Shown: positions 50,975 through 55,109 of the stretch, one piece after another
How positions within the stretch are numbered: the stretch's first letter is position 1
Layout of the letters: each line of letters opens with the position of its first letter
Assembly: GCF_900182605.1 (NCBI RefSeq)
Contig: NZ_FXTB01000001.1
Coordinates: forward strand, 1,116,001 to 1,180,000
Length of the DNA stretch: 64,000 nucleotides
Source: Saccharicrinis carchari
Lineage (GTDB): Bacteria; Bacteroidota; Bacteroidia; Bacteroidales; Marinilabiliaceae
Direction: 5' to 3'
Notes under the pieces: generated by a model
Told to the model about the DNA's origin: nothing
Database searches by the model: none
What the model saw: only the letters and a program-made list of their open reading frames with translations
Program-made: the position numbers and the translations under genes

Positions 50975-52342
50975 TTAAAATTTTCGCACGGTTACCTGCT
51001 TATTATCGTTTACAAAGCGGTTTATAAGTATTCGGGCATCCTGATTGTCGCTGTACAAAGTAATTCCCTGCACCACTTCGTCGAGCGAGCTGAAAGCGGC
51101 ATCCTTAGCTACCCATCCAAAACCCATGTACCTGCCCTCTTTTACCACAACTACTGAAAGCTCGTCCACATCTCTACCTTTATCCGTCAGCAAAAAACTA
51201 TCATATTTGTACCGCAGCAGTTCAATTAGTTCCTGCGCTCTGCTATTGTATTTATGGCATGGCTCCTCGCCAACGCAGGCACCTTTACAAATATTTAACT
51301 GGTACTGAAAACAGGCCGTGGCCGAGTCAGACAGTCCACATAGCTTTTGACACAATCCATATTCCTCTACTTTAGCAAACAAAAAGTCTTTAGCATTTTT
51401 CGCCGATTCAAAAGAGCTGATAGGGCTTATACGGCCATCGTTGCGGGCAATGTTAAAGCGGATATAGCCCTTTCTGTCGGTAAAGGAAAAGAGTCCGTAA
51501 TGAAAGCGGTTTTTGCGTTGCGCTTTATTATATAAGGGTTTATTCTGTTTTATCTCGGCCGACTCCTTTAATAGAGCAAGTAGTTCGCTACCGGTAAGCT
51601 CATAATCCACATCGGCCACTTCCGCTTTCATTTTCTGCGCTTTTTGTGCCTTGGGATTACCTAAATGTGTAAGCACTCTTTGCTTAATATCCTTACTTTT
51701 GCCTATATATATAAGTTCAGCCTTATGGTTATACAAATAATACACTCCTGTTTTATGCGGTAGGTGAGTTAACTTTTCGACGTTCAGTTGTGGATGTAAA
51801 CCTTTTATCGAAAAAAAATTATTTCCTTCCACAGGCAATAGTACACCCCCATTTTTCTTCAATAAAAGCTCAAACAATGCTACTGTAGCTAAAGCATCCC
51901 CCGCTGCTCTATGTCGGGCATTATTGGATATACCCAGTTTATCGCATAAATTACCCAAGCTGTAGGACGAATATCCCGGCATTAAATTACGGCTCAACTT
52001 AACTGTACATAGTGTTTCCCTTTCAAACGGATAACCCAAAGCCTCGAATTCGCTTTTTATAAAACCATAATCGAAAACCGCATTGTGTGCTACAAAAACG
52101 CTACCTTGCGTAATTTCAACAATACGTTTGGCTACCTCGTAAAACTTAGGGGCCTCCTGAACCATCTGGTTGCTTATACCGGTAAGCTGGGTAATGTAGG
52201 CCGGAATAAATTGTTCAGGATTAATCAAAGAAACAAACTCATCGACCACTTTTTTTCCATCGTGCAAATAAATGGCTACTTCGGTAATCTTACCCTTTTT
52301 AAAAGTCCCGCCAGTTGTTTCAATGTCGATAATGGTGTACAT
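50975..52342 (-). CDS. DEDDh exonuclease fused to a UvrC-type GIY-YIG nuclease domain
   Basis: 455 residues from ATG 52342 (MYTIIDIETTGG); ATG 52366 adds eight residues. Residues 1-165 are a DnaQ-like exonuclease: DIETTGG (Exo I), VAHNAVFDYGFIKSEF (Exo II), HRAAGDALATVALFELL (Exo III). Around residues 195-285 a GIY-YIG domain follows, KTGVYYLYNHKAELIYIGKSKDIKQRVLTHL. The C-terminal part has a four-Cys stretch (CQKLCGLSDSATACFQYQL, CKGACVGEEPC). It is the form of the UvrC N-half/Cho-like family fused to polymerase III epsilon. DNA repair is likely. Single gene. Confidence 0.92.
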   Translation of the reverse strand: MYTIIDIETTGGTFKKGKITEVAIYLHDGKKVVDEFVSLINPEQFIPAYITQLTGISNQMVQEAPKFYEVAKRIVEITQGSVFVAHNAVFDYGFIKSEFEALGYPFERETLCTVKLSRNLMPGYSSYSLGNLCDKLGISNNARHRAAGDALATVALFELLLKKNGGVLLPVEGNNFFSIKGLHPQLNVEKLTHLPHKTGVYYLYNHKAELIYIGKSKDIKQRVLTHLGNPKAQKAQKMKAEVADVDYELTGSELLALLKESAEIKQNKPLYNKAQRKNRFHYGLFSFTDRKGYIRFNIARNDGRISPISSFESAKNAKDFLFAKVEEYGLCQKLCGLSDSATACFQYQLNICKGACVGEEPCHKYNSRAQELIELLRYKYDSFLLTDKGRDVDELSVVVVKEGRYMGFGWVAKDAAFSSLDEVVQGITLYSDNQDARILINRFVNDNKQVTVRKF

Positions 52343-52461
52343 AACAGCCTTATAATTCTGATCCATTTAATATAAAAGCATAGCTGCCTTTTGTGGTAAA
52401 AATAGGAAAAAAATTATTTTAACCAGCAAAGATGTAAAACCGCTCAAATCGCTTGTAAAAC

Positions 52462-52493
52462 TTTGGTTAACTTGAAAATTAATCCTATATTTG
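52462..52493 (+). promoter_or_regulatory. Consensus promoter of the structured RNA gene
   Basis: TTTG at 52462-52465, exactly 20 bases, then TATATTTG at 52486-52493. This is a perfect match to the Bacteroidota -33/-7 consensus and no protein gene follows it. Confidence 0.85.
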
Positions 52494-52497
52494 TTTT

Positions 52498-52736
52498 AAG
52501 GTATTACAAAGGTAAACCGCATCAGTTTGACCTAGATTGTTAAACTCAACACTATAATAGAACCGAGTAAAGCTGTCTGATCCAAAGGCGGGCCTCACCT
52601 TAGGGTTATCGTTCGCGATACGGAGGATTACTGCGGATCGGATGCACTCAAATCCTGTTTACAGGAGTTTAAATAATCAACTTCTGATGCGGCCTTCATA
52701 AAAGAGCTACCCACTTCGGTCGGTAGCTCTTTTTCT
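52498..52736 (+). ncRNA. Structured non-coding RNA, 6S-like candidate
   Basis: About 240 bases between its own promoter and terminator, no open frame. Closing stem CCGCATCAG (52517-52525) with CTGATGCGG (52684-52692), extended by TTGA/TCAA. The next stem is TTAAACTC (52540-52547) with GAGTTTAA (52665-72). Then comes a large loop: its 5' side (about 52548-52578) is open and its 3' side has a small CCTG-TTTA-CAGG hairpin. The apical arm is GATCC/GGATC, CCTC/GAGG and a TATCG-TTCG-CGATA hairpin. A long rod with a central bubble and a 3'-side hairpin is the architecture of 6S RNA, which binds RNA polymerase holoenzyme. The RNA gene is well supported; the 6S identity is inference. Confidence 0.72.
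52703..52735 (+). terminator. Terminator of the structured RNA
   Basis: AGAGCTACC/GGTAGCTCT, 9 bp, around a small AC-TTCG-GT tetraloop stem, followed by T5. Confidence 0.9.
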
Positions 52737-53398: not shown

Positions 53399-54706
53399 CT
53401 ACAAATCTTTTAGGAGAACGTTCTTTTCAGACTTATCGCGCAATTGCTTAAAATGATCCGCTACTTTTTTTACTTTGATTAAGCCTTCGGTTTCTTCAAA
53501 ATGAAGGTTTTCACTTCCATGTTCTTCAATCATATTAAGTACGGTGCTCACCTGAAGTCGGTTTATATCTAAGGCAGGCTGAAAGGTTGCGGGCTCATTG
53601 GCGTCACCGGACACCTCCACCAATACCTTGCATTTCACCAGCTCAAATAATATCTCGTTAAGCAGTCGGATAGGCAGCTTCAGTTCTACTGATAACTCCA
53701 TTGGCGTTAGTGGCTCCTTGCCGGCTTCAAAGCGTTTAACGGCATTATAACTCACTAACAAAGCCACCAGCTTTTTATATTCGGCACTTGCATTTTTAGT
53801 ATCTATTTCAAACTCGTAACTATTTACGTTTTGCACCGAAAATGATATTTCGGCCCCAAACATTACAATGAGCCAACTGGATTGCATCCATATTAAAAAC
53901 AGCGGCAACGCGGCAAAGCTTCCGTAAATGGCATTGTAACGGGATACTCCCACCATAAAATGAATAAAGTAATACTGAAGCACCTGAAACAGCACACCAG
54001 CCACCACACCACCTACCAAAGCCGAAAGAAAATTAACTTTGGTATTAGGCATAATCAATATTAACATGGTAAAAACAATACAGATAAGTACATAAGGCAG
54101 CGTGGATGAAACGATACGGCCAAAATAGCTGAGTGCGGAGTAATCGTTAAATGTACTCGATACGAATACTATCATACTACTGCTCGAAATCAAAAACAAC
54201 AGGGCTACCAAAACCAAAGCAATATAATCGGTAAACCTGCGTGCAAAATTACGCGCCCGTTTTACTTCCCATATATCATTAAAACTCTGTTCAATATTAC
54301 CCAACATCTGCATTACCGACCAAAACAATATAACCAGTCCCACACCTATGATTATTCCGCTCTTGGTGCTTTTGATATACATCTCGGCCAAACGTAGTAT
54401 GTACTCGAGCACTTCTTTTTGACCTACCATTCTATTGCTTAACTCTTGTTTTAAGGTTTCGTCGAAACCGAAACCCAGCGCTATTCCATACAACAGAGCC
54501 ATCAGCGGCACTACCGACATGAGGGAGTAAAAAGTTAATGCCGATGCTTTTTGCTGACATTTATCTTTAATAAAACCCTTGACAGATAAATAGAGAATTC
54601 GAAGTATATTTATGATGATAGAATGCGGACGTGAGAGCTCCACTTTCTGGATCCTCCACATATCCTCGGTGAGATATTGAATAATTTTTGAGAAAGATTC
54701 TTTCAT
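53399..54706 (-). CDS. YihY/BrkB-family inner membrane protein
   Basis: 435 residues. The YihY/virulence factor BrkB domain with six membrane helices spans about 40-310: KASALTFYSLMSVVPLMALLYGIALGFG, VGLVILFWSVMQMLGNIEQSFNDIWEVKRARNFARRFTDY, LLFLISSSSMIVF, SALVGGVVAGVLFQVLQYYFI, and YGSFAALPLFLIWMQSSWLIVMFGAEISF. It ends in a soluble helical tail of about 120 residues resembling a winged-helix region (TPMELSVELKLPIRLLNEILFEL). Formerly annotated as RNase BN; now seen as a transporter-like family of unknown function. It lies just downstream of rnpB on the same strand. Confidence 0.92.
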   Translation of the reverse strand: MKESFSKIIQYLTEDMWRIQKVELSRPHSIIINILRILYLSVKGFIKDKCQQKASALTFYSLMSVVPLMALLYGIALGFGFDETLKQELSNRMVGQKEVLEYILRLAEMYIKSTKSGIIIGVGLVILFWSVMQMLGNIEQSFNDIWEVKRARNFARRFTDYIALVLVALLFLISSSSMIVFVSSTFNDYSALSYFGRIVSSTLPYVLICIVFTMLILIMPNTKVNFLSALVGGVVAGVLFQVLQYYFIHFMVGVSRYNAIYGSFAALPLFLIWMQSSWLIVMFGAEISFSVQNVNSYEFEIDTKNASAEYKKLVALLVSYNAVKRFEAGKEPLTPMELSVELKLPIRLLNEILFELVKCKVLVEVSGDANEPATFQPALDINRLQVSTVLNMIEEHGSENLHFEETEGLIKVKKVADHFKQLRDKSEKNVLLKDL

Positions 54707-54739
54707 TATAAATTACTTGAAAGATAAAAGAAGAAAAAA

Positions 54740-55109
54740 ATAGCAAGTCGATAAGCCGGGTTCTGTCACTCATACATGAGCGGTCTATCATTTGTCTATG
54801 CTTATTATTGCTAATAAGCTAAAGCAACCTACCCCTCACAATTGCTTTCGCACCAAGGCGGACCACCCTGTATCTTCCGAAATTGTGATATATTTGGTCT
54901 TGCAATCCATTAGTTGCACGGCTACCTGTGTTACCACAAGTACCGGTGGGCTCTTACCCCACCTTTTCACCCTTACCGAACCGTAGTTAGGCGGTTGTTT
55001 TCTGTTGCATTACTATACCCTCACGAGTATCTTCCCGTTAGGAAGCATGGCGCCCTGTATTGCCCGGACTTTCCTCCTCAATTAAGCGGCGATAGACTGA
55101 CTTGCTATT
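54740..55109 (-). ncRNA. rnpB: RNase P RNA (class A)
   Basis: Read on the minus strand, the 5' part has GAGGAGGAAAGTCCGGGC (the universal CR-I/P4 region), CAGGGCGCCATGC and CTAACGGGAAG; the 3' part ends ACAGAACCCGGCTTATCGAC. The P1 stem is 10 bp: 55099-55108 with 54741-54750. A TACATTTG promoter box sits at 55114-55121 just upstream, and a T7 run follows the 3' end at 54734-54740. It is the catalytic RNA that cuts the 5' leader from pre-tRNA. Plus-strand open frames inside this interval are not genes. Confidence 0.97.

Follow-up and report, generated by a model that had tools for sequence, protein, structure and literature searches.

The gene at positions 52462-52736 (+) of the window, the 64,000-nucleotide stretch of DNA analysed here, most probably (roughly 94%) encodes the 6S RNA (SsrS) of a Marinilabiliaceae bacterium (genome G000, 4.64 Mb), with its own promoter, its own terminator hairpin and a predicted capacity to hold RNA polymerase as a mimic of an open promoter. 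6S RNA is small and widespread among bacteria, and it shuts down their RNA polymerase by resembling a promoter in its open state. The assignment as a 6S RNA gene is supported and the gene is ordinary in itself, belonging to a known kind; the new part is the joining of three Rfam families. The identity, which the sequence-only reading had put forward as possible, found support in an Rfam match, in covariation, in homology to RF00013 (6S) via intermediates, in a zapA neighbour in relatives, and in the conserved nucleotide C52550, the predicted start of the product RNA.

A predicted -33 promoter element, TTTG, lies at 52462-52465 (+), with a similar element in most relatives, and is followed after a spacer of 20 nt by the predicted -7 element TATATTTG, of the Bacteroidota type TAnnTTTG, at 52486-52493 (+). 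The promoter pattern TTTG-N20-TATATTTG, the non-coding nature of the transcript and the strong terminator, all read earlier from the letters, were found again: the pattern is present at 52462-52493, the interval 52462-52736 holds zero ORFs of at least 50 aa (ATG, GTG or TTG start), and a hairpin is present at 52700-52733. The latter forms a predicted intrinsic terminator (52700-52734, +), recognized from its fold, with the stem 52700-52711/52722-52733 and a U-rich 3′ end. The start region and 5′ leader (52494-52516, +) were placed from the positions of the promoter and the closing stem P1, so that the transcription start is approximate. Folding of 240 nt gave -75.9 kcal/mol (z = -4.14), a value reached by 0 of 200 shuffles.

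By itself, the pattern TTTG-N19-21-TANNTTTG is no rarer in the window than chance (3 seen vs. 2.0 expected). An exact TANNTTTG stands within 110 nt upstream of the RNA in 28 of 30 Marinilabiliaceae (f1) loci and in 28 of 31 loci from elsewhere in the order, compared with about 2 per set in shuffles, the chance level being taken from per-locus shuffles summed over each set. In most such loci of the order, TTTG or a 4-mer differing from it at one position also stands 19-20 nt above TANNTTTG. A consensus scanner, made for other consensus sequences, listed neither the promoter at 52462 nor the terminator at 52700.

A boxA-like sequence, GTTCTTTGA, was observed in 6S leaders, following the upstream gene or promoter and preceding P1, for example at L069, L044 and L013, and also at L084. 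It occurs in the rRNA leaders of the same phylum, exactly in two of the three readable ones and with one mismatch in the third. With no more than one mismatch it was counted in 8 of 30 f1 loci (0.17 expected) and 12 of 30 loci of family f7 (0.10 expected), as well as in 1 of 31 other same-order loci, 1 of 6 in f11, 0 of 5 in f6 and 0 of 4 others. The window's own leader lacks it, the nearest sequence having 3 mismatches.

The RNA forms a rod whose closing stem, P1, pairs 52517-52525 with 52684-52692, exactly the 9 bp that had been proposed. The second stem also exists, but it has 13 bp with one bulged A rather than the 8 bp assigned to it: in this helix, P2, the 5′ strand GAUUGUUAAACUC (52535-52547), the predicted template of the product RNA, pairs with the 3′ strand GAGUUUAAAUAAUC (52665-52678), leaving A52673 bulged. 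The internal bubble with its 3′-side hairpin and the UUCG-capped hairpin (52608-52619) were both recovered as described. The 5′ side of the central bubble spans 52548-52564 and contains C52550, while its 3′ side, AAAUCCUGUUUACAG (52650-52664), carries the hairpin 52655-52657/52662-52664, which can be extended through G52665-A52666 at the expense of P2. Above the bubble, the 5′ strands of the upper arm (52565-52583) comprise P3 (52565-52568 and 52572-52573) and P4 (52575-52583), and the corresponding 3′ strands (52635-52649) comprise P4 (52635-52643) and P3 (52644-52649). The apical region (52586-52632) is built from P5 (52586-52587/52631-52632), P6 (52593-52596/52623-52626) and two hairpins, P7 (52597-52599/52604-52606) and P8 (52608-52611/52616-52619), the latter with the UUCG loop. 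All of these elements are on the + strand.

This structure (P1 to P6, the two apical hairpins and the 3′-bubble hairpin) was drawn from the window sequence and then scored on alignment A1, which consists of the window and 29 other f1 loci (n = 30), the other 24 matching f1 genomes being left unaligned. In A1, 97.5% of the 1568 cells pair and the bases on both sides change in 26 of 53 pairs. The covariation score was 0.323 vs. 0.156 in shuffles, of which 0 of 500 scored as high, and structures slid along the alignment reached at most 0.069. The expectation that the stems would covary in related genomes is therefore borne out among these 30 f1 sequences, and the rod with closing stem, central bubble and upper arm that is typical of the 6S class has covariation behind it. 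In P1, both partners change in 5 of 9 pairs, and 99.2% of cells are paired (n = 30). In P2, 100% of cells are paired, 11 of 13 pairs are invariant and one changes on both sides, as would be expected if the sequence of P2 matters besides its pairing.

A wider alignment, A3, holds 70 sequences from f1, the same order, f7, f6 and f11; it was fitted to the model, so that its counts are biased towards the structure, and in it both sides change in 9 of 9 P1 pairs and 12 of 13 P2 pairs across the class, with a whole-structure covariation of 0.575 vs. 0.194 in shuffles. The weakest helix in A3 is the 3′-bubble hairpin, with 76.2% of cells paired. All of these covariation counts refer to sequences, not to independent events. 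A3 was made with a stricter E-value than its predecessor A2, which included a spurious minus-strand match at L055 and gave nearly equal pair counts. Row L173 3117-3196 of A4 proved false, and A4 was kept out of the counts.

The search with Rfam models, suggested as a check of the identity, returned a match of RF01693 (Bacteroidales-1, “6S-Bacteroidales RNA suggested”) at 52521-52700 (+) with 100.1 bits, above its gathering cut-off of 60. At gathering level, RF01693 and RNase P RNA are the only matches in the window. RF01685 (6S-Flavo) matches at the same place on the + strand with 31.4 bits, below its cut-off of 85, and RF00013 had no match in the window at E up to 10, nor in the G000 genome. 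The window locus is the one RF01693 match of that genome. RF01693-type matches were found in 54 of 60 sampled f1 genomes, 49 of them above the cut-off. One f1 genome, G421 (98% complete, 5% contamination), has two RF01693 matches, on C36 and C51, with 92.3 and 83.3 bits; the pair reflects either a mixed assembly or a second 6S copy.

When 395 genomes were sampled evenly across the phylum, RF01693 found 12 genomes and RF01685 found 49, with six found by both at the same locus. A covariance model, R1, was made from f1 sequences only and applied to other loci, omitting the f1 loci of the model and three duplicates of others. It matched all 64 loci given, 31 from the same order and 33 from f7 and f6, over all 177 positions at E ≤ 3e-7. 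Since R1 matches every one of these Bacteroidales-1 and 6S-Flavo loci, RF01693 and RF01685 are one RNA. Family f7, found by 6S-Flavo, is taken as Flavobacteriaceae. Over the 395 genomes, R1 found 48, once each, including five in f11 that neither RF01693 nor RF01685 had reported; under its strict filters it missed 12 of the 49 genomes of RF01685. A second model, R2, was built from the Bacteroidia sequences of A3. Among 40 genomes without an R1 match, R2 matched five, one of which (G037) was already known from a sub-cut-off RF01685 match. Of these additions, L161 looks weak, and L163 lies between zapA and rny, neither of which had been used in finding it.

The connection to classical 6S RNA runs through intermediates, because RF00013 misses the window and R2 misses E. 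coli ssrS, giving no match even with filters off. RF00013 matched 55 of the 395 genomes, once each; the best match scored 42.3 bits against a cut-off of 46.4, which was thus passed in 0 of 395 genomes. For comparison with R2, 33 RF00013 loci were assembled, 30 from the 55 matched genomes together with G005, G009 and G010, three of 20 chosen genomes in which an R2 match before rny was already known. L226 was left out as a weak, short match with 17.1 bits (E 0.775) away from the rny contig. Although the families of these 33 loci have no sequence in R2, R2 matched 25 of them at E up to 1 (17 below 0.01), with place and strand identical to those of RF00013 in all 25; in the remaining 8 of 33, R2 had no match at default filters. 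At L195, for example, RF00013 scored 40.8 bits and R2 46.9 bits. The genes zapA and rny stand on either side of the RNA at all 33 loci, and neither gene was used to find 30 of them.

The same location recurs in the families found with 6S-Flavo. At all 30 f7 and all 5 f6 loci, zapA and rny flank the RNA and share its orientation, and ZapA and RNase Y were confirmed by Pfam on two examples each. The gene order in E. coli K-12 is zapA-ssrS-fau, and according to passages of PMC7641849, zapA is in every case immediately followed by ssrS in the beta- and gamma-proteobacterial operons surveyed there. Given zapA-RNA-rny in f7 and f6 and zapA-ssrS in E. coli, rny loci were searched. The gene rny was looked for in 22 genomes and was present in 19, from each of which one locus was taken. 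With filters off, R2 gave 15 matches at E up to 1 in these 19 loci. Ten full-sized matches, the nine best among them, lie directly before rny on the strand of rny; of the other five, L179 (62 bases) is also before rny and too short to count, and four are elsewhere. Upstream of the RNA, Pfam identified the ORF as ZapA at nine of the nine loci scanned (for L184, the scan used the shorter of two ORFs); the tenth locus, L185, has another ORF in that position. An all-Rfam scan of 14 rny loci showed sub-cut-off RF00013 matches at the same place in L170 (26.1 bits) and L172 (25.3 bits). R2 found no full-sized 6S-like match before rny at 9 of the 19 loci, one of them in the window's own genome, and in seven of those nine genomes no 6S candidate was found; these seven may carry the RNA at another site or in a form too diverged to recognize, or may lack it. 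Seven RNAs from other classes of the phylum were newly aligned (A5), but the result was too uneven to serve as the basis of a third model. The 6S identity is supported by homology to RF00013 via intermediates, zapA synteny in relatives and a conserved predicted start.

The neighbours of the window gene are different ones. Upstream and divergent from the RNA is the gene of a protein with an exonuclease (RNase_T) and a GIY-YIG domain by Pfam (50975-52366, -), and downstream and convergent with it is the gene of a BrkB-type membrane protein (53399-54706, -; Pfam PF03631). Relatives were to be examined downstream of the exonuclease/GIY-YIG gene, and this gene was seen upstream of the RNA, on the other strand, at 27 of 30 f1 loci, compared with 0 of 76 loci of other families; BrkB follows downstream at 19 of 30 f1 loci, likewise on the strand opposite the RNA. 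Most loci in these neighbour counts span 1.5 kb each way. In f1, zapA is beside the RNA at 0 of 30 loci, the zapA link being frequent for 6S and not strictly defining. The rplT gene for ribosomal protein L20 was seen upstream on the same strand at 10 of 31 other same-order loci (L003, L004, L005, L072, L073, L078, L079, L084, L089 and L091). With L20, zapA/rny and exonuclease/BrkB as neighbours, the surroundings of the gene differ between lineages. RNase P RNA of bacterial class A (54736-55108, -; 248.5 bits) is encoded roughly 2 kb away from the 6S gene, on the strand of the BrkB gene and immediately upstream of the latter.

The start of the product RNA was mapped in two steps, by aligning E. 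coli 6S and L195 to RF00013 and then L195 and the window to R2. The E. coli product RNA starts at U44, which aligns with a C of L195 and, through it, with C52550 of the window. In the E. coli RNA and the window RNA alike, this start is the third nucleotide past the copied helix (P2). C52550 is conserved in 30 of 30 sequences of A1 and 66 of 70 of A3. Accordingly placed by alignment, a product RNA 5′-GUUGAGUUUAACAAUC..., beginning GUUGAGUUUAAC, is predicted to start opposite C52550.

On the proposed mechanism, P1 and P2 would play the part of the downstream duplex, the central bubble that of the melted region and the arm from P3 to P8 that of upstream DNA, so that the rod could bind and hold the holoenzyme of RNA polymerase with the housekeeping sigma factor. 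When nucleotides are abundant, polymerase would copy the 5′ strand from C52550 through P2. Synthesis of this product RNA would open P2, and the freed GGAGUUU would lengthen the 3′-bubble hairpin, whereupon polymerase would be released. We infer polymerase binding, product-RNA synthesis, the release rearrangement and growth-phase control; what the data show are the sequence family, the covarying structure, the homology to RF00013 via intermediates and the zapA synteny in other Bacteroidota.

In f1, UCCUG of the 3′ bubble can pair with CAGGA, using two bases of P2. The 3′-bubble hairpin was equalled by at most 5 of 200 shuffles in 13 of 13 f1 sequences tested; at a limit of 10 of 200 shuffles, it passed in 9 of 19 f7, 5 of 29 other same-order, 0 of 4 f6 and 0 of 5 f11 sequences. 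Given these counts outside f1, the release rearrangement may not be general; it is likely in the window RNA and unproven as a general feature. A survey of Rfam structures (PMC7657543) likewise saw no covariation in support of the alternative 6S helix.

Three other explanations were weighed, all of them at low probability. The most credible of these, though very improbable, is a Bacteroidales-1 RNA with another function, such as base pairing with mRNA via ACUCAAC or GGAGUUU, without polymerase binding. It could account for the conserved stretches at and beside the bubble, and GGAGUUU has by eye a candidate likeness to a ribosome-binding sequence. However, the conserved single strands are located at the central bubble of 6S RNA, the homology to RF00013 via intermediates and the zapA synteny in relatives favour 6S, and product RNAs are reported for Bacteroides 6S in part of PMC7366714. 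A decayed or duplicated, non-functional 6S copy, which we rate as slightly less probable still, would agree with the position of the window gene away from the zapA-rny place of other lineages; against it, the genome has no other RF01693 match, the stems of the RNA are intact, and compensatory changes preserve them across f1.

The least probable explanation, to which we give almost no weight, is a cis-acting leader or attenuator of a downstream gene. The RNA does have a promoter and a terminator, and its f7 and f6 copies are flanked by zapA and rny, which share their orientation. Yet in the window the next gene recognized by Pfam, BrkB, is on the opposite strand, and the longest ORF on the + strand between has 69 aa, the ORFs there being outside the Pfam scan; moreover, the RNA stays constant while its neighbours vary by lineage.

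On the wider question of the three families, we lean somewhat towards Bacteroidales-1, 6S-Flavo and classical 6S descending from one zapA-linked 6S gene that predates the split of Bacteroidota and Proteobacteria, with zapA-rny as its place in Bacteroidota, a place left by the window's order. In the same joint reading, the gene would rather plausibly have moved to rplT in some lineages and to the gap between exonuclease/GIY-YIG and BrkB in Marinilabiliaceae. The Marinilabiliaceae copy would then, with comparable and moderate confidence, have its own promoter and mostly a separate terminator, and the gene at zapA-rny would lie largely beyond the Rfam cut-offs.

6S-Flavo and Bacteroidales-1 were described by Weinberg et al. 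(2010), who in passages of PMC2864571 count 6S-Flavo among RNAs sharing the function of a known class. According to parts of the respective papers, 6S RNA was observed in B. thetaiotaomicron together with two classes of product RNA (PMC7366714) and was detected in Flavobacterium psychrophilum (PMC9723704), so that 6S RNA in Bacteroidota is not new. In a literature search that extended neither to Wehner et al. (2014), the likeliest source, nor to the supplements of PMC2864571 and PMC7366714, no work was found that unites RF01693, RF01685 and RF00013, and neither zapA-6S-rny in Bacteroidota nor the complete helix set was found within the same scope.

Rfam lists Bacteroidales-1 as merely a suggested 6S, apart from 6S-Flavo and 6S, and this suggestion now becomes a statement of homology. 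To Bacteroidales-1 are added the closing stem, the template helix, the bubble hairpin and a predicted start of the product RNA. The interval between zapA and rny offers a place to search where all three models fall below their cut-offs, as in the 55 genomes with sub-cut-off RF00013 matches. Finally, control of polymerase by 6S becomes testable in a phylum whose TTTG/TAnnTTTG promoters are unlike those of E. coli.

Compared with the RF01693 model, the window RNA gives a full-length match with the same apical arm and conserved bubble sequences. The Rfam structure, however, pairs the upper arm only, leaving P1, P2, GAGU/ACUC of P3 and the 3′-bubble hairpin unpaired, and most f1 RNAs differ from it by a separate terminator hairpin after P1. 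RF01685 represents the same RNA, R1 matching 33 of the 33 f7 and f6 loci given, but its apical arm is shorter, it is located between zapA and rny, and an exact TAnnTTTG is upstream in just 1 of the 33 loci. At f7 loci such as L013 and L031 a T-run directly follows P1, where f1 mostly has the extra hairpin; the f7 closing stem itself looks like an intrinsic terminator, since P1 continues straight into the T-run.

With E. coli ssrS and RF00013, the window RNA shares the closing stem, the helix beside the bubble, the central bubble, the upper arm and, via relatives, the zapA link, whereas the conserved sequences are unlike and the models do not match directly either way. In the portion of PMC8876501 concerned, E. 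coli 6S is described as forming an extended 3′-bubble hairpin once P2 is opened, and B. subtilis 6S-1 as having a shorter one already in the free RNA. On that description, the window RNA resembles 6S-1 in its predicted 3′-bubble hairpin in the free RNA and in the predicted use of the 5′ strand as template, but the f1 hairpin takes P2 bases and in this respect is closer to the extended hairpin of E. coli than to that of 6S-1.
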